Source of the DNA: Betaproteobacteria bacterium
GTDB lineage: Bacteria; Pseudomonadota; Gammaproteobacteria; Burkholderiales; SG8-41
Assembly: GCA_947486575.1 (NCBI GenBank)
Contig: CANKUB010000002.1
Span: 1-64,000 of the forward strand
Reading direction: 5' to 3'
Length of the DNA stretch: 64,000 bases
This document shows positions 6,984 through 20,122 of this stretch, one piece after another. The translations under genes were made by a program, and so were the position numbers. The notes under the pieces were generated by a model. That model had not been told where the DNA came from. It saw only the letters and a list, made by a program, of their open reading frames with translations, and did no database searches. The stretch's first letter is position 1, and every line of letters starts with the position of its first letter.

Positions 6984-7634
6984 TTAGGTGAGCAGCGCTT
7001 CTTTCGGTCGCATGCCTTGTTTTTCCATCACGGATTGCAGCACTTCGTAGTAGTGCCAGCCGTTGATGCGGGTTCTGCCCAGAAATAGGGTGGGCGTGCT
7101 GGTGATGCCGATGCGTTGCGCCTGCTTGACGGCATCCAGCGCACGCTCGGCGTAGTGACCTTCAGCCAATGCCGTTTCAAGTTCGGATGCATCCAGGCCC
7201 ACGCGTTCTGCGGCAGAGAGCAGGGTATCGATTTCGCCGATGTCGCCACCTTCTGTCCACATAACATCGTAAATAGCTGTTTTATATGGGAAATCAAGGC
7301 CGTAGTCGCAGGCGAATTCAAGCGCTTCAAAGGCGTGGAAGCTGTATTGCCGCTTTTCGGGATACTGTCGTATGCGCGCAAACTGGTCGGGCGCCATTTC
7401 CTTCATCCACGCATTGCGGCGCTCGGCTTTGGCTGTAGCATCGGCGCTGTTGTCGCGCGCGCAGCCTTCGGGTGGCGTATCCGGGTGCAGCCAGTGTGGG
7501 CGCCACATCGGCGTGACGCCGTACTCGCTGGCCAGGCGGTCGATTTGCTCGACTGCCAGAAAGCTGTAGGGGCATACAAAATCCGCAAAAACAGCTACAC
7601 GAAACGGTTCTTTGATTTCAACGGTTGTTGTCAT
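6984..7634 (-). CDS. DsbA-fold oxidoreductase (FrnE-like)
   Basis: A 216-residue thioredoxin-superfamily protein of the DsbA/2-hydroxychromene-2-carboxylate isomerase group. The DFVCPYSFLA segment (about residues 18-27) holds a CPYS motif with only one Cys, in place of the CxxC of classic DsbA; the cis-Pro region is ITSTPTLFLG near 173. No signal peptide, so it is cytoplasmic, as in FrnE relatives. ATG at 7634 is preferred over the GTG one codon up, with GGAG 7 bases before it. The substrate is not predictable. It is followed in the opposite direction by tupA. Confidence 0.75.
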   Translation of the reverse strand: MTTTVEIKEPFRVAVFADFVCPYSFLAVEQIDRLASEYGVTPMWRPHWLHPDTPPEGCARDNSADATAKAERRNAWMKEMAPDQFARIRQYPEKRQYSFHAFEALEFACDYGLDFPYKTAIYDVMWTEGGDIGEIDTLLSAAERVGLDASELETALAEGHYAERALDAVKQAQRIGITSTPTLFLGRTRINGWHYYEVLQSVMEKQGMRPKEALLT

Positions 7635-7648
7635 CACATGTCTCCAGT

Positions 7649-8419
7649 TTAAATGGCTCTGGCCATGGCGGCTGCAGCTTCTACCGCGAGACCTTCGCCG
7701 GTTATACCGCCTTCGAGTGCATCTTTGTCAAACGTCAAGAATGCCACGCTTGCCCCCGCATAGCCAGTGATAATCGGTTCAACGGCCTCGTTACTGCGTA
7801 CATAACGAAATCCCGGCGGGCCGATTTCCTGCCCGCCCACGATAACGGAACCTTCAAGCACAACCTCGTAGCGCCCGAAAACCGGCGCGGGCATTGACAG
7901 TGCCGCGTGCGCTGGCGTGCGCGTAACCACTGCAGCAGGACCAAAATCCGGCGGCATCAACAGTTTGAATGTTCCATCCTCCAGGCCAGGAAATGGCTGC
8001 CACTGACTATCCGACGCCAGTGACGCAAACAGCCGACCGCTCAAATTGATCTGACGCCGCGCGTCGTGATTGGTCATCGCAATAATGCCGCCGGCGCGAG
8101 GGTGCAGCACCAGCATATCGTGGCTGCCCGACACCGCGAACGGGCCGTACGGCATTTTGTGATCGGTATAGTGAATCGCCAGCGATTCCAGATGTTTAAC
8201 GCCGCGCGGAAAATCCATCGCGCCGTTGAGCAGCAGTTGAAACTGCGACGTCAGATGCATGTGCGCATAAACGGATGGACAATCGTCGAAGCGGAATCGC
8301 ATCGCCTCCGGGCCGCCATCATCGCCGGGCAGCAGCACCTGGCAGGCGAACGCAACGCCTTCGGAAACACTGCGTTTCCAGGGGGCGTTCGCGGAATCGA
8401 CGATGTAGCTTTGTTGCAC
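7649..8419 (-). CDS. Uncharacterised cupin-like protein
   Basis: A 256-residue protein without signal peptide or membrane segments. The sequence (MHLTSQFQLLLNGAMDFP, then LAIHYTDHKMPYGPF and later ALSMPAPVFGRYEVVLEGSV) looks like two beta-rich cupin-type halves, with His residues at HMH and HYTDH that could bind metal. I do not recognise the family and give no function. It is upstream of and probably cotranscribed with the DsbA-like gene (15-base gap), and divergent from the ModE-like gene. Its location inside the Mo/W region may be incidental. Confidence 0.6.
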   Translation of the reverse strand: MQQSYIVDSANAPWKRSVSEGVAFACQVLLPGDDGGPEAMRFRFDDCPSVYAHMHLTSQFQLLLNGAMDFPRGVKHLESLAIHYTDHKMPYGPFAVSGSHDMLVLHPRAGGIIAMTNHDARRQINLSGRLFASLASDSQWQPFPGLEDGTFKLLMPPDFGPAAVVTRTPAHAALSMPAPVFGRYEVVLEGSVIVGGQEIGPPGFRYVRSNEAVEPIITGYAGASVAFLTFDKDALEGGITGEGLAVEAAAAMARAI

Positions 8420-8971: not shown

Positions 8972-8993
8972 ATAACTGTATGTTTTTATTGAA
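8972..8993 (-). repeat. Dispersed A-rich motif, copy at modA start
   Basis: On the minus strand this reads TTCAATAAAAACATACAGTT AT, close to the recurring motif of this window. It spans the modA start codon, so part of it is coding for the signal peptide. Confidence 0.5.
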
Positions 8994-9774
8994 TAAAGTT
9001 TTATCTCCTTTATCAGATATATCACTCCTGGCAGCCCTGTGGGTGTTTACCTTGCCTGGCGCATTTGCACAGACAGGCGCGGACACGACCATTTACGCGG
9101 CAGCCAGCCTGAAGGAAGGTCTCGATACTTTGGCCCGGCAATTCGCAAGGCAGGGCGGAGGCAGCGTGCGCATGTCGTATGGCGCCAGTTCTGCGCTTGC
9201 ACGGCAAATTGAAAAAGGCGCACCAGCGGATATGTTTATTTCCGCTGATCTTGAGTGGATGTATTATCTCGATCAACGCAAGCTTATACTTGCGGGTTCA
9301 CGGGTAAACCTGTTGTCGAACCGGCTGGTGCTGATTGCGCCTGCCGACAGCAAAACGGTTTTGACGATTGCACCAGATTTTCCGCTCGCGGTGGCGCTGG
9401 GTGTGAATCGGCTGGCGATGGCCGATCCAGCCAGCGTGCCCGCCGGCAAGTATGCCAGGGCCGCGCTGCAGAAGCTTGGTGTGTGGCCTGCGATTGCGCC
9501 CAAGCTGGCTCCGGCTGAAAACGTGCGTGCCGCGTTGGCGCTGGTAGCCCGCGGCGAAGCACCGTACGGCATTGTTTATCGCACCGATGCGATTGCCGAG
9601 CGCAAGGTGCGTGTGGTTGGCGAGTTCCCGGCAAACTTGCATCCGCCGATTGTTTATCCGGCAGCGTTGCTCGCCGACAGGCGCTCCAAATCCATTGATG
9701 AATTACTGCGTTTTTTGCAATCACCCGGAGCGCGCGCGGTGTGGCGTGAGTATGGTTTTGTGGTTGAAGGGTAG
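8980..9774 (+). CDS. modA: Molybdate-binding periplasmic protein
   Basis: Receptor of the ModABC molybdate importer, 264 residues. The signal peptide ends near GAFAQTG (about residue 30). Mature motifs include AAASLKEGLD (oxyanion-binding Ser), SYGASSALARQIEKGAPAD and later ENVRAALALVARGEAPYGIV, all characteristic of ModA. A weak ribosome site precedes the ATG. First gene of modABC, under the ModE operator just upstream. The gene for ModB starts two bases after its stop. Confidence 0.93.
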   Translation: MFLLNKVLSPLSDISLLAALWVFTLPGAFAQTGADTTIYAAASLKEGLDTLARQFARQGGGSVRMSYGASSALARQIEKGAPADMFISADLEWMYYLDQRKLILAGSRVNLLSNRLVLIAPADSKTVLTIAPDFPLAVALGVNRLAMADPASVPAGKYARAALQKLGVWPAIAPKLAPAENVRAALALVARGEAPYGIVYRTDAIAERKVRVVGEFPANLHPPIVYPAALLADRRSKSIDELLRFLQSPGARAVWREYGFVVEG

Positions 9775-9776
9775 CC

Positions 9777-10484
9777 GTGATATCGGGCGAAGAAATCGGC
9801 ATCATTTTACTCAGCCTGAAGGTCGCGCTGTGGAGCGTGGCCATCAGCGTGCCGTTCGGTCTTGCGGCGGCGCATGTGTTGGCGCGCCGTGATTTCTGGG
9901 GCAAAAGTCTGTTCGATGCGCTGGTGCATTTGCCGCTGGTGTTGCCGCCAGTGGTGGTGGGTTACTGGTTGTTGCTGCTGTTCGGGCGGCGCGGACCGTT
10001 GGGTGCATTTCTCGAAGAATGGTTTGGTATTGCGGTGGCGTTTCGCTGGAGTGGCGCGGCGATTGCCAGTGCGATCATGAGCTTTCCGTTGATGGTGCGC
10101 GCGATGCGTTTGTCGATGGAAGCAATTGACCCCAAGCTTGAAGCGGCCGCGCAAACGCTGGGCGCGGGGCGCCTGGGCGTTTTGCTCACCATTACGCTGC
10201 CGCTGGCGATGCCGGGTATTTTGACCGGCATGCTACTGGCGTTTGCGCGTAGCCTCGGCGAATTTGGCGCAACGATTACCTTTGTCTCCAACATTCCGGG
10301 CGAAACGCAAACGTTGCCGCTGGCGATTTACGCTTTATGGCAGGTGCCGGGTGGCGAATCAGCGGCGCAGCGCTTGTGCGTGTTGTCGTTGATACTCTCG
10401 CTGGCGGCGTTGCTGTTTTCCGAAGCATTGGTGCGTCGCGCAAATCGCCGCATCAAGGGTTACGATGCTGTCCGTCGAAATTAA
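9777..10484 (+). CDS. modB: Molybdate ABC transporter permease
   Basis: Membrane subunit of the molybdate importer, 235 residues, starting at GTG 9777. Five or so helices with the ModB signature LVHLPLVLPPVVVGYWLLLL, and the coupling loop EAAAQTLGAGRLGVLLTITL, are seen. Its end overlaps modC by 20 bases, so translation of the two is likely coupled. Confidence 0.93.
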   Translation: MISGEEIGIILLSLKVALWSVAISVPFGLAAAHVLARRDFWGKSLFDALVHLPLVLPPVVVGYWLLLLFGRRGPLGAFLEEWFGIAVAFRWSGAAIASAIMSFPLMVRAMRLSMEAIDPKLEAAAQTLGAGRLGVLLTITLPLAMPGILTGMLLAFARSLGEFGATITFVSNIPGETQTLPLAIYALWQVPGGESAAQRLCVLSLILSLAALLFSEALVRRANRRIKGYDAVRRN

Positions 10485-11544
10485 TCACGAGCAAGGCGAC
10501 TTCAGCCTCGACGCTGTGTTTGAATGCGGCGCGGGTGTGACGGCGCTTTTTGGTCGTTCAGGTGCGGGCAAAAGCAGTCTGGTCAACGCCATCGCGGGGC
10601 TGATACGTCCGCGCAAAGGCCACGTCGTGTTCGACGGTGAAACGTTGTTTGATTCAGCGCATGGCATCCACGTCCGCGCGGGAAAGCGGCGCTTTGGTTA
10701 CGTGTTTCAGGAAGGGCGTTTGTTTCCGCATTTCACTGTTCAGCAAAATCTTGTTTATTCTCACTGGTTTGATCGCGCGTTGTATTCGGCGAGTGATTTC
10801 GCACATGTGGTTGAACTGCTGGGCATCGGCGAATTATTGCAGCGTCGCCCAGCGCAATTATCCGGCGGCGAAAAGCAGCGCGTCGCCATTGGCCGCGCGC
10901 TGCTGGCCAAACCTCGCTTGCTGTTGCTGGATGAGCCGCTGGCCTCGCTCGACGCCGAACGCAAGCATGAAATTTTGCGCTATCTGCGTTTGCTGCGCGA
11001 CGAGACGCGCATCCCGATGATTTACGTCAGCCACGCGGTCGAGGAGGTGCTGGAGCTTGCCGATCAAGTGGTGCTGCTGGCGTCGGGCCGCGTGGTTGCT
11101 AGCGGTAGTGTAGAAGCGGTGATGGGACGGCCTGATCTGCGCCCATCGTCTGGCGTGTTTGAAGGCGGCGCGGTGATTGAGACGCACGTTATCGGCATTG
11201 ATCTCGAAGACGGTCTTGCCACGCTGGGTTTTGATGGCGGCACGCTGACGGTTGGCAATTTTGATGCACAAGCGGGTGAGCGTGTGCGGGTGCGCATACG
11301 CGCACGCGAAGTGTCAATTGCGCTGGTGCCGCCGCAGCAGATCAGCATTCAGAATATTTTGCGTGGCAGGATTGCTGCGATTGATGAAGCGCGCAGTGGT
11401 CGCGTCACGGTGATGATTGCAGTGGGTGCCGCAATGCTGCGTTCAGGCATTACACGGCGCTCCGCGCGCCAGCTTGCGTTGGTGCCGGGAATGGATGTCT
11501 ACGCGTTGATCAAGGCGATATCCCTTGACCGGCACAGTGGATAG
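10465..11544 (+). CDS. modC: Molybdate ABC transporter ATP-binding protein
   Basis: ATPase of the molybdate importer, 359 residues. Walker A GRSGAGKSS (about residues 28-36), signature LSGGEKQRVAIGRALL, Walker B LLLLDEPLASLD and switch His in VSHAVEE are intact. The C-terminal 70 residues form a TOBE/MOP domain (from about SIQNILRGRI), which in this family binds oxyanion and can inhibit transport. Because the ModE-like protein here lacks such a domain, ModC carries the only clear molybdate-sensing domain in the cluster. mobB follows after 49 bases. Confidence 0.93.
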   Translation: MLSVEINHEQGDFSLDAVFECGAGVTALFGRSGAGKSSLVNAIAGLIRPRKGHVVFDGETLFDSAHGIHVRAGKRRFGYVFQEGRLFPHFTVQQNLVYSHWFDRALYSASDFAHVVELLGIGELLQRRPAQLSGGEKQRVAIGRALLAKPRLLLLDEPLASLDAERKHEILRYLRLLRDETRIPMIYVSHAVEEVLELADQVVLLASGRVVASGSVEAVMGRPDLRPSSGVFEGGAVIETHVIGIDLEDGLATLGFDGGTLTVGNFDAQAGERVRVRIRAREVSIALVPPQQISIQNILRGRIAAIDEARSGRVTVMIAVGAAMLRSGITRRSARQLALVPGMDVYALIKAISLDRHSG

Positions 11545-11558
11545 CCGTAGAATAATAA

Positions 11559-11580
11559 TCAATAAAAACAAATACTTACA
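11559..11580 (+). repeat. Dispersed A-rich motif, copy between modC and mobB
   Basis: Reads TCAATAAAAACAAATACTTA CA, the reference copy of the recurring motif. It lies 13 bases upstream of the mobB start codon and in the same orientation as that gene. Confidence 0.6.
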
Positions 11581-11593
11581 TTCACTTCTTGTC

Positions 11594-12091
11594 ATGAAAA
11601 TATTTGGCTTTGCCGGTTACAGCGGCAGTGGCAAAACCACGCTGATCGAGAAATTGATTCCGTTATTCACGGCGCGCAATCTTAAAGTGTCGTTAATCAA
11701 GCACGCGCATCACACCTTTGATGTGGATACGCCGGGCAAAGATTCATATCGTCATCGGCACGCGGGTTGCGCTGAAGTGCTGGTCACGTCGTCGCGGCGC
11801 TGGGTACTGATGCACGAATTGCGCGGCGAGGCCGAACCGGATTTGAATGAGCAGATCATGCACTTGTCGCCGTGCGATTTGCTGCTGGTTGAGGGTTTCA
11901 AGCATGATCCGATTCCAAAGATCGAGGTCTATCGTGCGGTGACGGATGAGCCGTTGTTGCATCCGCATGACGCAAACGTGGTGGCGGTGGCGAGTGACGC
12001 GCCGTTAAACACTGCGCTGCCGCAGCTTGATCTTAACCAGCCGCAGCAAATTGCAGACTTTATGTTGAAGCATCTGGGATTTGACGCATAA
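11594..12091 (+). CDS. mobB: Molybdopterin-guanine dinucleotide biosynthesis GTPase
   Basis: A 165-residue P-loop protein that assists MobA in attaching GMP to molybdopterin, forming the bis-MGD cofactor used by formate dehydrogenase. Walker A GYSGSGKTT is at residues 8-16, followed by SLIKHAHHTFDVDTPGKDSYRHRHAG (shown in part: KHAHHTFDVDTPGKDSYRH), the MobB family signature. ATG at 11594 gives the normal N-terminus; the longer frame upstream overlaps modC and adds unconserved residues. Placement behind modABC fits cofactor supply. Confidence 0.92.
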   Translation: MKIFGFAGYSGSGKTTLIEKLIPLFTARNLKVSLIKHAHHTFDVDTPGKDSYRHRHAGCAEVLVTSSRRWVLMHELRGEAEPDLNEQIMHLSPCDLLLVEGFKHDPIPKIEVYRAVTDEPLLHPHDANVVAVASDAPLNTALPQLDLNQPQQIADFMLKHLGFDA

Positions 12092-12098
12092 TATCGAT

Positions 12099-12353
12099 AT
12101 GATTACCTTGCTTTATTTTGCACGACTGCGTGAAGCCTTTGGCATGGCGTCTGAACGAATCGTATTGTCTGCGGATACCCGTACGCTTGAAGGCGTACGC
12201 ACAATGCTGGCGGCACGCGGCGGCGCGTGGGCGCACGAGTTAACCGCGGGGCGTGCATTTCGTGCGGCGGTTAATCAATCGATTGCCAGCGGCGATACAC
12301 CGATAAAAGACGGTGATGAAGTGGCGTTTTTTCCGCCGGTGACAGGGGGCTGA
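12099..12353 (+). CDS. moaD: Molybdopterin synthase small subunit
   Basis: An 84-residue ubiquitin-fold sulfur carrier. The C-terminus FFPPVTGG ends in the required Gly-Gly, which is thiocarboxylated and donates sulfur to precursor Z (cPMP) inside the MoaD-MoaE complex. ATG at 12099 (ITLLYFARLREAFG) is the conserved start; the few in-frame codons upstream overlap mobB. moaE begins 6 bases after its stop. Confidence 0.93.
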   Translation: MITLLYFARLREAFGMASERIVLSADTRTLEGVRTMLAARGGAWAHELTAGRAFRAAVNQSIASGDTPIKDGDEVAFFPPVTGG

Positions 12354-12359
12354 GAAAAC

Positions 12360-12821
12360 ATGGCTGTTCGTGTGCAAGCCGAAGATTTTGATGTCAGCGC
12401 GGAAATCGCCACGCTGCGCAAAGATAATCCGCGCATCGGTGCGATTGCGAGCTTCATTGGCGTGGTGCGGGATTTGAACGAAGGCGACAGCGTTGCGGAG
12501 ATGACGCTGGAGCATTATCCCGGCATGACGGAAAAATCCGTCGAGGAAATTATCATGCAGGCGCGTGGCAGCTGGCAGGTAATGGATGCGCTGGTAATCC
12601 ATCGCATTGGCACATTAAAGCCGCTGGATCAGATTGTGCTGGTGGTGGTGACCAGCGCCCATCGAGGCGACGCGTTTGCAGCCTGCGAGTTCATCATGGA
12701 TTTTCTGAAAACGCGCGCGCCATTCTGGAAAAAAGAACAAACCGGCAAGGGTGCGCGCTGGGTTGATGCGCGGGCCGCTGACGATGCAGCGGCGGAACGC
12801 TGGCAGAAACAAGGTGAGTAG
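12360..12821 (+). CDS. moaE: Molybdopterin synthase catalytic subunit
   Basis: A 153-residue partner of MoaD that converts cPMP to molybdopterin. Family motifs: GAIASFIGVVRD (about residues 26-37), LEHYPGMTEKS, HRIGTL, VTSAHRGDAF and FWKKEQ, the last carrying the conserved lysines of the active site. Standard length (E. coli 150). Tightly linked to moaD upstream and crcB 3 bases downstream. Confidence 0.94.
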   Translation: MAVRVQAEDFDVSAEIATLRKDNPRIGAIASFIGVVRDLNEGDSVAEMTLEHYPGMTEKSVEEIIMQARGSWQVMDALVIHRIGTLKPLDQIVLVVVTSAHRGDAFAACEFIMDFLKTRAPFWKKEQTGKGARWVDARAADDAAAERWQKQGE

Positions 12822-13254: not shown

Positions 13255-16200
13255 CTAAGGTTTACGTGACTTAGAGGCTGTAGTTTGCCATTCGCCGTCG
13301 AGTCGTAACTTCAGCGGGGTAGTGGGGCCAAGGTCGATGGCTGGCTTACCTGCTGGCGACGTAAGCGCCGTGCCTGCAACACCTGCAACAGGCACCGGCG
13401 CTTTGGATGCGGCAAAGTAGGCGCCACCACCGACAGCGGCCACCAAGGCAGCAGCGGCCAATACTCGCTTGGACAGCGCGCGCCGCCTGTCACCCGCCAA
13501 AAGGTCGCGTGGTTTTCCGAGCAGTGCCTTTTCAGCCTTTTCGCGGCTTGCCGTTGCTTTTGCCAAAGTTTGCTGGGCACGGATGCGAGCCTGTTCTTCC
13601 GTGTAAGCGCGGTCTTTCGCCTCTTTCGCCTGACGCGCGACTTCTTCCGCAGCAGCTTCTTCCTTGCTGCGCTCTTCAGCGGCCATGCGCGCCTGCTCAT
13701 CCGCCGCTTCCCGTTCTACAGCCAGGTGTGAGGCGCTGGATTCAGCTTGAAAGCGCTGCTCTGCTGCCAGTTTTGCGGCTTCTTCTTCGATCTGCCTTTG
13801 TCTGGCAGCATCGATGGCAGCGGTTTCCGCATCCGCACGCGCCTGAGCTTGTGAGCGCAACGCTTCTTCTGCATTTTTTGTTGCGAGTGCGGCAGCCGCA
13901 AGCGCGTGCTCGGCCTCGGCACGTGTGGTGGCGGCTTGCGTGGCTTCTGCTTCAGCGGCTACCAGCGCGCTGGATTTTGCGGCAGTTTCCTGCTCGGCGG
14001 CTATGCGCGCGGCGGTGGCGCGCTGTGCCGCAACCTCAACTTCTGCAAGCGCCAGAGACTGTTCGGCGGCAGTAATTTCGGCGGCTGCACGCTGTGCTAC
14101 GGCGTCCTGCGCCGCTTGTTCGCTTGCTTCGCGATGGCGCAACGCTTCAATCGCTGTTGCTTCAGCATTAACGCGAGTCTGTATTGCTGCGTGCAGCGTT
14201 TCTTCGGCGTTTTTCGCTTTGAGCGCAGCGGCTGCAAGCGCGTGATCGGCCGCCGCTCGGGCTGTGGCAGCTTGCGTCGCTTCTGCTTCGGCGGCAATCA
14301 GCGAGCTCGAACTTGCGGCAGTGTTCTGCTCGGCGGCTATGCGCGCAGTGGTGGCTTGTTGCACAGCGGCTTCCGCTTCTGCAAGCGCTCTAGACTGTTC
14401 AGCGGCCATAATTTCGGCGGCTGCACGCTGTGCAGCGGCGTCCAGCGCCGCCCGTTCCCTGGCCTCGCGTTGGCGCAACGCTTCAATCGCTGTTGCTTCT
14501 GCATTGACGCGAATTTGTATTGCCGTGTGCAGCGTTTCTTCGGCGTTTTTCGTTTCGAGTGCAGCGGCTGCAAGCGCGTGATCGGCGTCCGCTCGGGCTG
14601 TGGCAGCTTGCGTGGCTGCTGCTTCAGCATCTATCAGCAATGTGGATTTTGCGGCGGTTTCCTGCTCAGCGGCTATGCGTGCTGCTGTGGCATGTTGTGC
14701 CGCGGCCTCTGCATCGGCACGCGCCCTGGCTTGGTCGGTGGCGGCACGTTCGGCTACCGCGCGTTGCTCCGCAACGTGCTGCGCGGCGCGTTCGCCGGCC
14801 TCGCGCTGGTGGGCGGCTTCAAGCGCCTGGGCTTCCACGGCTGAGCGTTCCTGCGCTTGCAGGAGCAAGGCTTCTTCTTCGGCTTTGTGTTCAGCTGCCA
14901 GGCGTTCAAGTTCCTGTTCAGCTGCCAGCTTTTGCTGTGCGGTATGTTGTAACTCTGCTTCGGCTTTGGCCTGCGTTTTTGTCGCGCGTTTCGCTGCCGC
15001 GTTTTCTGAGATGATTTTCTGCGTGGAGTCGAGCGCCAACAGGTTGGATTGCGTGGCGCTCTTGGCTTCTTCAACCAAACGCCGTGTTTGCGCAATGATC
15101 GCTTCCACCTTGGCGCGTGCGCTCATGCTTTGATGCGCTTCGGCTTCGGCTGCTTCGCGCTGCTGTAGCAGTTGCAGCGCTTCGTTCTCGTTGTGCGCGC
15201 GCGTTTCGGCGGCACGCGCGGCTTCGGCCTCTGCAGCGGCACGGGCTTGCGCCTGCTCGGTGGCGGCACGTTCGGCTTCCACGCGCCGCGCAGCCTGAAG
15301 CTCAGCCTCTTGTTCCACGTGGGCGCGCGCCTGAGCCAGTTCCGTGGCATCACGCTCAGCCTCGGCCCGCTCCTTGGCATGGCGTTCGGCTTCCTGTTCG
15401 CTTTGCTGTCGTGCTTCGGCGGACTGAATGGCAGCTTGTTCGAGATGTTCGCGTTCTTTCGCCGCCGTCAGCAGACTGGCTTCGGCATCGGCGCGTTTTT
15501 GCGCTTCTATGCGTAGCGCGTCTTCGGCTTGCTGGCGCTCAGCCGCCGCTATGGCAGCGGCACGTTCGGCCTCTGCCCGTTGTTGAATGGTGCGGGCGGT
15601 TTCGGCTTCTGCCTGGGCTTGTTGTTGTACCAGTGCCTGCGCCTCGGCTTCTTTGTCGGTGAGTTGTGTTGCCTCTTGCAACGCGAGCAAATTGGTTTGT
15701 GTGCGGCTGTTGGCGCGTTCGATTTGCGCCAGGGCATGGGCAATGATGGCCTCGGCCTTGTTGCGCGCTTCTACGTGTTCTGTGGTTTGCTTTTCAGCGG
15801 CCTGACGCGCTGTGGATAGGCGGGCTGCTTCGATTTCGGCGGTAGCGCGTTCTTCGGCGGCTTTTCTTGCGGCAGCCTCGGCAGTTGCGCGTGCCTGGGC
15901 CTGGTCAAGCAAGGCTTGTTCGGCTTCAGCGCGTTTGTGCGCCAGCCGTGCGGCTTCTTGTTCGGCAGTAGTACGGGCTTCGGCCGTCCGCTTGAAGGCT
16001 TCTTCGGCCAGTTGTTTTTCGCTTGCTGAACGCACAGCCTCAAGCTCGGCTTGATTCCGTTGACGCGCGATACGCAAGGCGCGTTCTTCGTCGGCGGTGG
16101 CTTTTTGCAGCTTTGCCACGCCTTCGGGGTCGCGGTTTGCTGCTGGATTGACTGGCGCTAATGAACGCTTGTCGGGCGCACTTGGCGAAGCAAAATCCAG

Positions 16201-17253
16201 GTCAACGAGATCCCCCAGCTGATCGGCGTAGGTGTCGCGTATCGAACGCATCTCGGGCAGCACTTGCTTGAGGGCTGTAACGATTTGCGGGTCGAATTGC
16301 GTGCCCGACGCACGCTCAATCAGCGAGACAGCGCCATCGATGGGCAGTGGTTCCTGGTGAAAGCGAGTGACGGTCAACGCCTCGAAGGTATCCACCAAAG
16401 CCATCACGCGGCCCGGCCACGGAATATCTTCGCCTTTGAGTCCCTTGGGATAGCCGTTGCCATCCCAGCGCTCGTGGTGGGTGAGCGCGAGCGTGCGCGC
16501 CAGCGCCAGCAGCGGGTCGTCGTGTACGCCGATGATTTCAGCGCCGATTTCCGCATGTTTTTTCATCTGCTCCCACTCGGGGGCGGAAAGGCCGCTGCTT
16601 TTGTGGAGTACCTGCGCAGGCACGCCGAGCTTGCCGATGTCGTGCAGCGGCGCAGCCTTCATCATCAAATCGGACAGCGTTGGCTGGGCACCGGCGGCGT
16701 CGGCGAGCAGGCGCGCATAGTGGCCTAGACGAACCACGCGGTTGCCGACGGCTGTGCTTTCGTGGTACTCCATGGTGCGCGCCAGACGGCGCACTAGTTG
16801 CACGCGGGCGGTTTCGAGCTCGGCGGTACGCTCGCGCACGAGGGATTCCTGCTCACGGCGGCGGTACGATAGCTCAAGGTGGTTGCGTACGCGTGCGCGC
16901 AGCACCTCGGCGTTAAGGGGTTTGATGATGTAATCGGCGGCGCCCAGCTGGAAGCCTTTGACGATATCGGCGGGCTCATCTTTGGAGGTCAGAAAGATGA
17001 CCGGTATTTCAGCGGTGGCAGCGGTAATCTTCAATGCCCTGCAGACGTCATGCCCGCTGGCACCGGGCATTTCCACATCAAGCAGGACCAGATCGGGAAC
17101 GGGTTTTTCGAGTGCGCGCTTTAACGCCGAGCGACCATCTGAAGCGGGGCGGATAGTGTAGGTATCCTGCAGCACTGACGTGACCAGATCACGGATGTCT
17201 TCCGTATCGTCGACGACGAGAATGGTGAGTTTTGCGGGTGACTCATTCGCCAT
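13255..17253 (-). CDS. Giant REC/HD-GYP protein with long coiled coil and membrane anchor
   Basis: 1332 residues. The N-terminus is a response-regulator receiver (DD at 15-16, phospho-Asp D59 in LLDVEMPG, K111). An HD-GYP cyclic-di-GMP phosphodiesterase domain follows (HDIGK 204-208; HHERWDGNGYP 259-269; LVDTFEALT 287-294), with catalytic residues present. After a linker, residues about 385-1240 are an Ala/Glu/Arg/Gln-rich helix rich in heptads, predicted coiled coil. A single membrane segment (VLAAAALVAAVGGGAYFAAS, about 1264-1283) and a 49-residue Pro/Thr/Ser tail end the protein. HD-GYP regulators are usually 350-550 residues, so the coiled coil is extraordinary. The C-terminus may be periplasmic with the rod spanning the cytoplasm; it could serve as a scaffold, for instance in polar or cell-envelope organisation (inference). 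No sensor kinase is adjacent. Confidence 0.9.
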   Translation of the reverse strand: MANESPAKLTILVVDDTEDIRDLVTSVLQDTYTIRPASDGRSALKRALEKPVPDLVLLDVEMPGASGHDVCRALKITAATAEIPVIFLTSKDEPADIVKGFQLGAADYIIKPLNAEVLRARVRNHLELSYRRREQESLVRERTAELETARVQLVRRLARTMEYHESTAVGNRVVRLGHYARLLADAAGAQPTLSDLMMKAAPLHDIGKLGVPAQVLHKSSGLSAPEWEQMKKHAEIGAEIIGVHDDPLLALARTLALTHHERWDGNGYPKGLKGEDIPWPGRVMALVDTFEALTVTRFHQEPLPIDGAVSLIERASGTQFDPQIVTALKQVLPEMRSIRDTYADQLGDLVDLDFASPSAPDKRSLAPVNPAANRDPEGVAKLQKATADEERALRIARQRNQAELEAVRSASEKQLAEEAFKRTAEARTTAEQEAARLAHKRAEAEQALLDQAQARATAEAAARKAAEERATAEIEAARLSTARQAAEKQTTEHVEARNKAEAIIAHALAQIERANSRTQTNLLALQEATQLTDKEAEAQALVQQQAQAEAETARTIQQRAEAERAAAIAAAERQQAEDALRIEAQKRADAEASLLTAAKEREHLEQAAIQSAEARQQSEQEAERHAKERAEAERDATELAQARAHVEQEAELQAARRVEAERAATEQAQARAAAEAEAARAAETRAHNENEALQLLQQREAAEAEAHQSMSARAKVEAIIAQTRRLVEEAKSATQSNLLALDSTQKIISENAAAKRATKTQAKAEAELQHTAQQKLAAEQELERLAAEHKAEEEALLLQAQERSAVEAQALEAAHQREAGERAAQHVAEQRAVAERAATDQARARADAEAAAQHATAARIAAEQETAAKSTLLIDAEAAATQAATARADADHALAAAALETKNAEETLHTAIQIRVNAEATAIEALRQREARERAALDAAAQRAAAEIMAAEQSRALAEAEAAVQQATTARIAAEQNTAASSSSLIAAEAEATQAATARAAADHALAAAALKAKNAEETLHAAIQTRVNAEATAIEALRHREASEQAAQDAVAQRAAAEITAAEQSLALAEVEVAAQRATAARIAAEQETAAKSSALVAAEAEATQAATTRAEAEHALAAAALATKNAEEALRSQAQARADAETAAIDAARQRQIEEEAAKLAAEQRFQAESSASHLAVEREAADEQARMAAEERSKEEAAAEEVARQAKEAKDRAYTEEQARIRAQQTLAKATASREKAEKALLGKPRDLLAGDRRRALSKRVLAAAALVAAVGGGAYFAASKAPVPVAGVAGTALTSPAGKPAIDLGPTTPLKLRLDGEWQTTASKSRKP
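13870..14760 (-). repeat. 336-bp internal repeats in the coiled-coil gene
   Basis: Near-identical segments recur at exactly 336 bp: CTCGGCGGCTAT at 13993-14004, again at 14329-14340, and CTCAGCGGCTAT at 14665-14676; AACGCTTCAATCGCTGTTGC recurs at 14141 and 14477. The unit encodes 112 residues (from ADHALAAAAL through EATQAATAR), that is 16 heptads, so copy-number change would keep the coiled-coil register. Edges are degenerate, so the boundaries given are approximate. Confidence 0.85.
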
Positions 17254-17302: not shown

Positions 17303-17854
17303 TCAACGTACGGCGGCGGCAATTTTTTGTTCAATTTGCGTGCGCCACTGTTCACGCGTGGTGAATCCGGGGGTATCGCGACAATGTTTTTCGATACTGG
17401 ACCATAGTTGATCGTCGGGCTGATCGAGATCAACCGCCAGGCGATGCGGTTGCGGCACGTACCAGGGCGTATCGATCAGCAATTCCACGCGATTTTTTTC
17501 CGGATCAAGAAAATATACCGACAGTGCATTGCCATGCGTAATCGGGCCAAGCATGGTGATCGCTTCGTGTTTCAAACCGTGAAACATTTCACGCAACGTG
17601 GTTAGACTATCCACGCGAAATGAAATTTGATTGATCACGTTGAAACCAAGTTCGGCTGGCTTGCCCGTGGCGAACACCAGTTGATGATGTTCTCGCGGAT
17701 CACGCGTCATGAATACAATCGAGCCGCCGTCATCGCGGTCGCCACGATCAGACACGACAAACTTGAGAAAGCGTGTGTAAAAATCCACCATTTTGGCAAT
17801 ATCGGTGACGAAGTACCCGACGTGGCTGAGCGCCAGCGAAAATCCTTGTGCCAT
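17303..17854 (-). CDS. VOC-family (glyoxalase/extradiol dioxygenase-like) protein
   Basis: A 183-residue vicinal-oxygen-chelate protein: HVGYFVTDIAKMVDFYTRFL at the start supplies the first metal His, and FLDPEKNRVELLID near residue 125 supplies the Glu ligand. Such proteins are metal-dependent dioxygenases, isomerases or lyases; catechol 2,3-dioxygenase-like members often work in aromatic degradation. The substrate cannot be told from the sequence. It is divergent from a Bug-type receptor gene 78 bases away. Confidence 0.8.
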   Translation of the reverse strand: MAQGFSLALSHVGYFVTDIAKMVDFYTRFLKFVVSDRGDRDDGGSIVFMTRDPREHHQLVFATGKPAELGFNVINQISFRVDSLTTLREMFHGLKHEAITMLGPITHGNALSVYFLDPEKNRVELLIDTPWYVPQPHRLAVDLDQPDDQLWSSIEKHCRDTPGFTTREQWRTQIEQKIAAAVR

Positions 17855-19048: not shown

Positions 19049-19065
19049 TATGCAACCTATGTGAT
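19049..19065 (+). promoter_or_regulatory. Shared 17-bp element, second copy
   Basis: TATGCAACCTATGTGAT differs from TATGTAACCTATGCGAT at 8454-8470 (upstream of the modE-like gene) in only two C/T positions. Both lie just ahead of regulatory genes. Function unknown; it could be an operator for one of them. Confidence 0.3.
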
Positions 19066-19072
19066 AAGCCCC

Positions 19073-20122
19073 ATGATCGATCTTGCAGAAATTTTGCGAC
19101 GTGTGCCTTTGTTCGCCGGACTGGATGCCGACGACTTGCGCTATGTGTTGAGTGTCGCGCGGCAGATCAGCTATGCGCCGGGCGTGTTGCTGGTGCGTCA
19201 GGGGCAACCTGCCGATAGCGCGCTAATCATGGAGCGTGGCCATGCGCAAGTGGTCAATGCTTTGCCCGGCGGTGGCGAAACGGTGGTGGCTGATGTCGGG
19301 CCCGGCAGTGTGCTGGGCGAGACCGCGCTGCTCGATAGCGGGGTGCGCATGGCCAATGTGGTGGCGCGCGCGCCGACCGCGTGTTTGAGCATGGAACGCG
19401 ACGCTTTCCGCATGCTGATCGCGCAGGGGAATCAGGCGGTGCTGGCGATTAATCATCGCATTACGCTGACGTTGTGCCAACGGTTGCGCGAATTGAACGG
19501 CAAAATACTGGCAGTGAGCGCACCGGAAAATCTGCCCCTGGCAGCAGTGCGCCATACGCACGAGCGGCGTGCCTGTGATTTTGACTATCGCGCTTTTCTC
19601 GGCGTGCTGCCCGCCTTGCATCATTTCAGCCCGGAAGATATTGATGAATTGCTGAGTGCCGCTCAGGTGTTTGACGTGCCGCGTGGCGCGCGCTTGTTTG
19701 AAGCGGGCACACCGAGTGAGGCGTGTTATGTGGTGGTGCGTGGTGCGCTAGAAATCAGCCGTGATCAAAACGGCGCGCACCGGCGTATCGGCATACTGGG
19801 GCCGGGGCGCCTGTGCGGTGTGCTCGGCTTGATCGAGGGGCAGCGGCATAGCATGTCCGCAACGGCGCGTGAGCATGCGACGCTGCTGGAGTTGCCGCGT
19901 GCTGCATTTATGCGGTACTACAAAAATGAGTACAGCGGCGGCGCGCGTGGCGCGCTCAAATTCCAGCGGGTGATTAATCAGGAATTATTACAATCGCTGT
20001 CGCGCACCAACAATCACTTGACGAGTTTGATCAGTCAGGCGCGCATCCGCAATCACGTGCAGCATGCGGATGACCTGCAACTTGCGCTGGTGGAGCAGGA
20101 GTGTCGCACCGGCGTGCGCTGA
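19073..20122 (+). CDS. Double cyclic-nucleotide-binding-domain protein
   Basis: 349 residues holding two Crp-type sensor domains: the first (about 15-130; VLLVRQGQPADSALIMERG, then PGSVLGETALLD) and the second (about 185-300; ARLFEAGTPSEACYVVVRG, then GPGRLCGVLGLIEG). There is no C-terminal helix-turn-helix, no kinase or cyclase domain and no membrane segment. It therefore may act by protein-protein contact. ATG at 19073 is preferred to the GTG at 19061 by similarity of the beginning to other domains. It ends 8 bases from the convergent dehydrogenase gene. Confidence 0.8.
   Translation: MIDLAEILRRVPLFAGLDADDLRYVLSVARQISYAPGVLLVRQGQPADSALIMERGHAQVVNALPGGGETVVADVGPGSVLGETALLDSGVRMANVVARAPTACLSMERDAFRMLIAQGNQAVLAINHRITLTLCQRLRELNGKILAVSAPENLPLAAVRHTHERRACDFDYRAFLGVLPALHHFSPEDIDELLSAAQVFDVPRGARLFEAGTPSEACYVVVRGALEISRDQNGAHRRIGILGPGRLCGVLGLIEGQRHSMSATAREHATLLELPRAAFMRYYKNEYSGGARGALKFQRVINQELLQSLSRTNNHLTSLISQARIRNHVQHADDLQLALVEQECRTGVR

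Follow-up and report, generated by a model that had tools for sequence, protein, structure and literature searches.

A REC-HD-GYP regulator with an altered metal site, a long helical rod and a C-terminal membrane segment in a betaproteobacterial genus

RpfG was the first demonstrated phosphodiesterase of the HD-GYP family, and its metal site, probably a two-metal site, has Gly and Phe at the positions of Glu185 and His189 in PmGH (PMC4159591). In PmGH itself, substitution of Ala for His189 or Asp183 abolishes activity, while the same substitution at Glu185 lowers it (PMC4159591). Another HD-GYP protein, DvhD, is missing metal ligands and is a pure receptor of cyclic dimeric GMP (c-di-GMP) (PMC13090378). 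A receiver (REC) followed by a coiled coil, of 1,076 residues in AglZ or 235-258 residues in FrzS, is a known scaffold design in Myxococcus (PMC4546325, PMC1974792). The gene described here lies in a stretch of 64,000 nucleotides, hereafter the window, from Betaproteobacteria bacterium (Burkholderiales; contig CANKUB010000002.1 of assembly GCA_947486575.1, positions 1 to 64,000). It encodes a REC-HD-GYP regulator that is extended by a very long helical rod and, near its C-terminal end, one membrane segment.

Judged from the sequences, this architecture is real, conserved and, among the genomes sampled, restricted to one genus. The protein is tentatively interpreted as an RpfG-type regulator with an altered metal site, in which a phosphorylation-controlled, c-di-GMP-responsive module would be carried on a flexible, length-variable and tail-anchored tether. 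This interpretation is plausible but falls short of probable.

Layout, conservation and occurrence

The 1,332-residue protein consists, in order, of REC, a stalk helix, HD-GYP, a Pro-rich linker, the rod, the membrane segment and a tail (Table 1). Pfam assigned residues 11-123 to Response_reg (E 7e-25) and residues 168-324 to HD_5 (E 8e-27), with zero matches past residue 324. The usual RpfG-type layout stops soon after HD-GYP, whereas the window protein continues for about 1,000 residues beyond it. The AlphaFold2 model (56 relatives), with a mean predicted local distance difference test (pLDDT) score of 91, comprised REC, a 51-residue stalk helix and the HD-GYP bundle. The Pfam match, the model and fold matches in the PDB all place HD-GYP directly behind REC and the stalk helix. 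The original prediction of REC, HD-GYP, a long Ala-rich helical part and a single C-terminal membrane segment was thus borne out by Pfam, composition, Kyte-Doolittle hydropathy and the orthologs. Its further statement that no regulator of this design had been described also stands, in that none combining REC, HD-GYP, a long rod and a tail anchor was found in the open-licence literature searched.

Eight of the 14 genomes from the genus had an ortholog, 79-91% identical over REC-HD-GYP. The locus adjoins fluC, and the surrounding gene order is largely common. The pairwise ratio of nonsynonymous to synonymous substitution rates (dN/dS) for REC-HD-GYP was about 0.05-0.1 in well-separated pairs and 0.1-0.2 in the closest pairs, while the rod, with its frame kept in 8 genomes, gave 0.1-0.4; the rod values are rough, the synonymous sites being near saturation in many of the rod comparisons. 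A chance or non-coding frame is ruled out by frame conservation and purifying selection across the 8 genomes. An assembly artefact is an unlikely source of the window frame, although the exact repeat number is less secure because the rod contains the 336-bp tandem repeat listed in Table 1.

Beyond the genus, the fused form was absent from the strong matches in 74 genomes of the same family and in samples of 399 genomes each from the order and the phylum, a survey that a much diverged copy could escape; among the genomes sampled it is therefore confined to the genus. A profile of the tail (A2) likewise gave no match to other genera when run against the order sample. Of the long HD-GYP frames elsewhere in the phylum (630-916 codons), the five inspected were rejected as examples of the same design, since their extra length was upstream and only 88-102 residues followed GYP. 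No gene remnants were seen at the fluC locus in the five non-carriers inspected, and at least three of these had a DEAD-box helicase after fluC.

The altered metal site and its descent

The REC and HD-GYP domains had both been predicted to be intact. This was correct for REC, where the phosphorylation residues were complete in 8/8 orthologs, but not for HD-GYP, where the positions of E185, H189 and K317 of PmGH are occupied by Ala, Arg and Gln. R172 was found in all eight orthologs and A168 in seven, with Lys in the remaining one. Because the alignment carries an insertion of one residue immediately ahead of R172, the E185 position was matched by counting backwards from that arginine. Every ortholog lacks two of the eight metal ligands of PmGH and has a substitution at one substrate residue (K317), and the ligand set of the trinuclear E/D-T-G type is incomplete. 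The positions of PmGH D183 and D308 are both Glu in the window protein. Among 109 other REC-HD-GYP relatives, 100 have His at the H189 position. Another REC-HD-GYP protein of the same organism (G000:C210; about 385 residues) is ordinary and reads GNH at the ligand position.

The remainder of the site was better preserved. The PmGH H-D, H250, HH, GYP and D305 positions were all kept, and H204, D205, K208, H233, H259, H260, Y268, D288 and R297 were conserved in the window protein. The closest structural matches of the modelled HD-GYP domain were PA4781 (4r8z), PmGH (4mcw) and DvhD (9rbz), with a TM-score of 0.87 by target length for 4r8z_A. The conserved residues, the two-metal site of the best match, PA4781, and the lack of the E185/H189 pair in RpfG as well (PMC4159591) are what would be expected of an active RpfG-type c-di-GMP phosphodiesterase with a two-metal site, simply brought to the membrane by the anchor without a fixed distance. 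That such an enzyme is the correct description is nevertheless rather unlikely for several reasons, 1) loss of the His189 side chain was sufficient to abolish PmGH activity (PMC4159591), 2) D183, which is essential in PmGH, as well as D308 and K317, are replaced by Glu, Glu and Gln, and 3) two short sister proteins, L132 and L133, have also lost the His of the HD pair, so that the clade seems to be moving away from catalysis. Enzyme and receptor are not told apart by sequence alone, because RpfG, which is counted as active, also lacks the E185/H189 pair.

The closest relatives of the fused proteins are short proteins of about 370 residues from genus g64, in another family of the order; these also carry Arg in place of the first metal His, and their DLDF/DLNF end is similar. 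In the maximum-likelihood tree the 8 fused and 3 short proteins formed one clade (100/99) within the REC-HD-GYP proteins of the order. L132 and L133 (genomes G131 and G444), short REC-HD-GYP relatives from another family, have Arg at the first metal His and YD replacing HD, and from their sequences they are probably non-enzymatic. The simplest reading of this pattern is that the site was altered first, and that the rod and anchor were then added, within the genus, to an existing RpfG-like regulator.

Rod, membrane anchor and in-frame TAG codons

The rod follows the Pro-rich linker after HD-GYP and is the longest Pro-free stretch (871 residues; 33% Ala, 15% Glu). Its self-identity peaks at lags of 14, 28, 42 and 112 residues, the last of which corresponds to the 336-bp repeat. 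In the model of the C-terminal part, one helix extends to residue 1245 and is followed by the membrane-segment helix and then by a disordered tail, with low confidence past the first helix. The Kyte-Doolittle mean of the membrane segment, taken over residues 1264-1282, was 1.93, compared with 1.43 for the next best in the protein, and it is the only clear segment. In the 8 orthologs the mean was 1.55-1.99, the upstream net charge was +1 to +5 and 39-55 residues followed. The positive charges are N-terminal of the segment, and the rod should therefore be cytoplasmic and the 49-residue tail periplasmic. A single segment near the C-terminus with positive charge on the cytoplasmic side is the pattern of a tail-anchored (N-in) inner-membrane protein. 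All eight orthologs keep the juxtamembrane helix and the membrane segment, as well as the tail pattern P..L..D..W (DxxW).

The length of the rod between two fixed landmarks was 386 (G004), 450 (G003), 588 (G012), 812 (window), 860 (G001) and 939 amino acids (G002, a figure that includes N bases). The figure for G007, 1,035, is inflated because its frame is broken near the end, and the G006 gene is divided between two contigs. In G007 a short insertion with repeated LSAEERGKEEAA (L115, about 7600-8150) breaks the frame near the C-terminus and is either an assembly error or real decay. The REC-HD-GYP parts of G003, G004 and G012 are 94-96% identical despite their very different rods, which contradicts the proposal of a fixed spacing between c-di-GMP breakdown and the membrane. 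With rods of 386 to about 940 residues in close species, a ruler of constant length is unlikely, and a flexible or adjustable tether fits the sequences better.

One in-frame TAG was present in each of three of the eight orthologs. In G012 (L110) it is codon 300, inside HD-GYP, which is Gln in other orthologs; in G001 (L114) it is codon 397, at the start of the rod, which is Gln in the window protein; and in G007 (L115) it is codon 363, in the linker, which is Pro in the window protein. The frame beyond the TAG was open for about 800-1,060 codons in all three. Although G001 and G007 group as sisters in the tree, their stops are at different positions, so the two look independent. The original prediction would have been overturned had the coiled coil been a separate gene; in the window it is not, since there is one frame, while in these three orthologs a TAG separates most or all of REC-HD-GYP from the rod. 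The use of TAG as an amino acid codon in the genus was ruled out, as TAG closes 12 of 43 conserved window genes plus the regulator gene. No premature stops were found inside real genes in 115 control ortholog pairs on the same contigs (41,355 codons), where the flagged stops were located upstream of the true start, at the end, or within an antisense open reading frame (ORF) judged spurious. General sequence error in metagenome-assembled genomes was rejected on this ground as the source of the TAGs, though not completely; the excess of TAG (3 in 9,431 codons against 0 in 41,355) gave p = 0.006 in a rough and post hoc test. A separate start codon for the rod was sought after the TAG; codon 78 in G012 was the only candidate accompanied by a sequence resembling a ribosome site, and it was not convincing. 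The TAGs could be real truncations that free (G001, G007) or inactivate (G012) REC-HD-GYP, recent decay, or metagenome consensus errors.

Variable length, internal tandem repeats, three in-frame TAGs at different sites and short relatives that manage without a rod would all be accounted for if the rod were a largely neutral, repeat-driven extension, gained and lost, with REC-HD-GYP as the working part. This is improbable, however, given a rod dN/dS of about 0.1-0.3 in most pairs, zero Pro in 871 residues, and a juxtamembrane helix, membrane segment and D..W motif that a useless extension would not keep in all orthologs. Equally improbable is that the protein is a scaffold, filament-forming or polar, built by assembly of the rod and with location as the sole task of REC: this idea has a precedent in AglZ and FrzS (PMC4546325, PMC1974792) and would suit the Ala-rich rod with its regular 14-residue periodicity, but the REC domains of those proteins are non-phosphorylatable and they have no HD-GYP, while in the window protein REC is complete, REC-HD-GYP is the best conserved part and rod length is not conserved.

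Turning to the neighbourhood, the VOC gene at 17303-17854 was rejected as a partner in a conserved operon, its matches in the other carriers being on other contigs. At 19061-20122 (+) the window encodes a protein that by eye appears to have two cyclic-nucleotide-binding (CRP-like) domains; in several genomes it is found close to the regulator. An apparent cluster for molybdate uptake and cofactor synthesis, also recognized by eye (8980-12821, +; modABC-like, mobB-like and moaD/moaE-like), adjoins fluC, and its order is partly common to relatives.

Table 1. Features of the regulator gene, with window coordinates
Feature	Position	Strand	Description	Basis
Whole gene	13255..17253	-	1,332 aa; ATG start, TAG stop, single frame	
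Receiver (REC)	16885..17223	-	Residues 11-123; D15, D16, phosphoacceptor D59, T89 and K111 all kept	Pfam, alignment
Stalk helix	16759..16911	-	Residues 115-165; predicted signalling/stalk helix linking REC to HD-GYP	AlphaFold2
HD-GYP	16282..16752	-	Residues 168-324; HD 204-205, H233, HH 259-260, GYP 267-269, D288	Pfam, alignment, model
Altered metal-ligand stretch	16738..16752	-	AVGNR; A168 and R172 at PmGH E185 and H189 positions	Alignment
Gln300	16354..16356	-	PmGH K317 position; RFHQ replacing RPYK; codon is TAG in ortholog G012	
Helical rod	13513..16125	-	Residues 377-1247; Pro-free, Ala/Glu/Gln/Arg-rich; 14-residue repeat AxxRAxAExxA	
Tandem repeat in rod	13857..14809	-	336 bp (112 aa), 2.8 copies, 78% match	
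Juxtamembrane helix	13585..13677	-	Residues 1193-1223, conserved; EERSKEEAAAEEVARQAKEAKDRAYTEEQAR	
Membrane segment	13405..13464	-	Residues 1264-1283, N-in/C-out by charge; VLAAAALVAAVGGGAYFAAS	
C-terminal tail	13258..13404	-	49 residues, predicted disordered, Pro/Ala-rich; PLKLRLDGEWQ (P..L..D..W) at 1313-1323	

Proposed mechanism and known systems

If the protein is a tethered regulator of the RpfG type, as we tentatively prefer, a histidine kinase would phosphorylate D59 of REC, and the stalk helix would transmit the resulting change to an HD-GYP dimer. The HD-GYP module would bind c-di-GMP, perhaps with slow hydrolysis at a two-metal site. The rod, with a reach of at most about 0.13 micrometre if each of the 871 residues adds 1.5 Å, would tether the module to the inner membrane, keep it within reach of membrane partners and offer a binding surface along its length, while the conserved DxxW tail may dock to something in the periplasm.

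Several observations weigh against this mechanism. R172 and Q300 may weaken the binding of c-di-GMP as well as its hydrolysis. The rod sequence is compatible with both a dimeric coiled coil and a single helix. Three of the eight orthologs lose the rod through a TAG, and one of them also loses part of HD-GYP, which implies that the complete product is dispensable in some cases. The upstream neighbour of the regulator gene varies among genomes, so that the context gives no pathway. A bolder version, in which a phosphorylation-gated, tail-anchored c-di-GMP receptor, and no standard enzyme, has a rod set by repeats, and in which TAGs free the module in some lineages, with both the tethered and the free form in use, is very doubtful.

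A current view of c-di-GMP signalling is that it depends on local pools, which are determined by where the enzymes and receptors are located. If reach from the membrane is indeed set by an evolutionarily adjustable rod, the genus would offer a natural test of this idea, with the short sister proteins as a matched control without the rod. A clade in which Arg replaces the first metal His would also be useful for sorting enzymes from receptors among HD-GYP domains. What is new for the REC-HD-GYP family is the rod; an RpfG-type core with an altered site occurs also in the short relatives.

Compared with known systems, the protein shares the order of REC and HD-GYP with RpfG of Xanthomonas and other REC-HD-GYP regulators, and, as in RpfG, the E185/H189 pair is absent (PMC4159591). 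The other REC-HD-GYP proteins found in this analysis end soon after HD-GYP and have neither a rod nor a membrane segment. No rpf genes were present among the ORFs adjoining the regulator gene, the part of the genome that was searched for them. PA4781 (4r8z) and PmGH (4mcw) have the same HD-GYP fold and most of the active-site residues, but both keep the first His ligand in the alignment and neither has a C-terminal rod. DvhD of Desulfovibrio is also a membrane-linked HD-GYP protein missing metal ligands and acts as a c-di-GMP receptor; it has periplasmic dCache and cytoplasmic PAS domains ahead of HD-GYP, whereas the window protein has a REC input and a C-terminal anchor after the rod. AglZ and FrzS have an N-terminal REC followed by a very long coiled coil, a layout that the window protein may share in part. 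A membrane segment is not described for them in PMC4546325 and PMC1974792, and they are pseudo-receivers that have no phosphoacceptor and no HD-GYP. In the window protein, by contrast, D59 is kept (8/8 orthologs) and HD-GYP sits between REC and a rod with a 14-residue period, a putative coiled coil recognized from its sequence.

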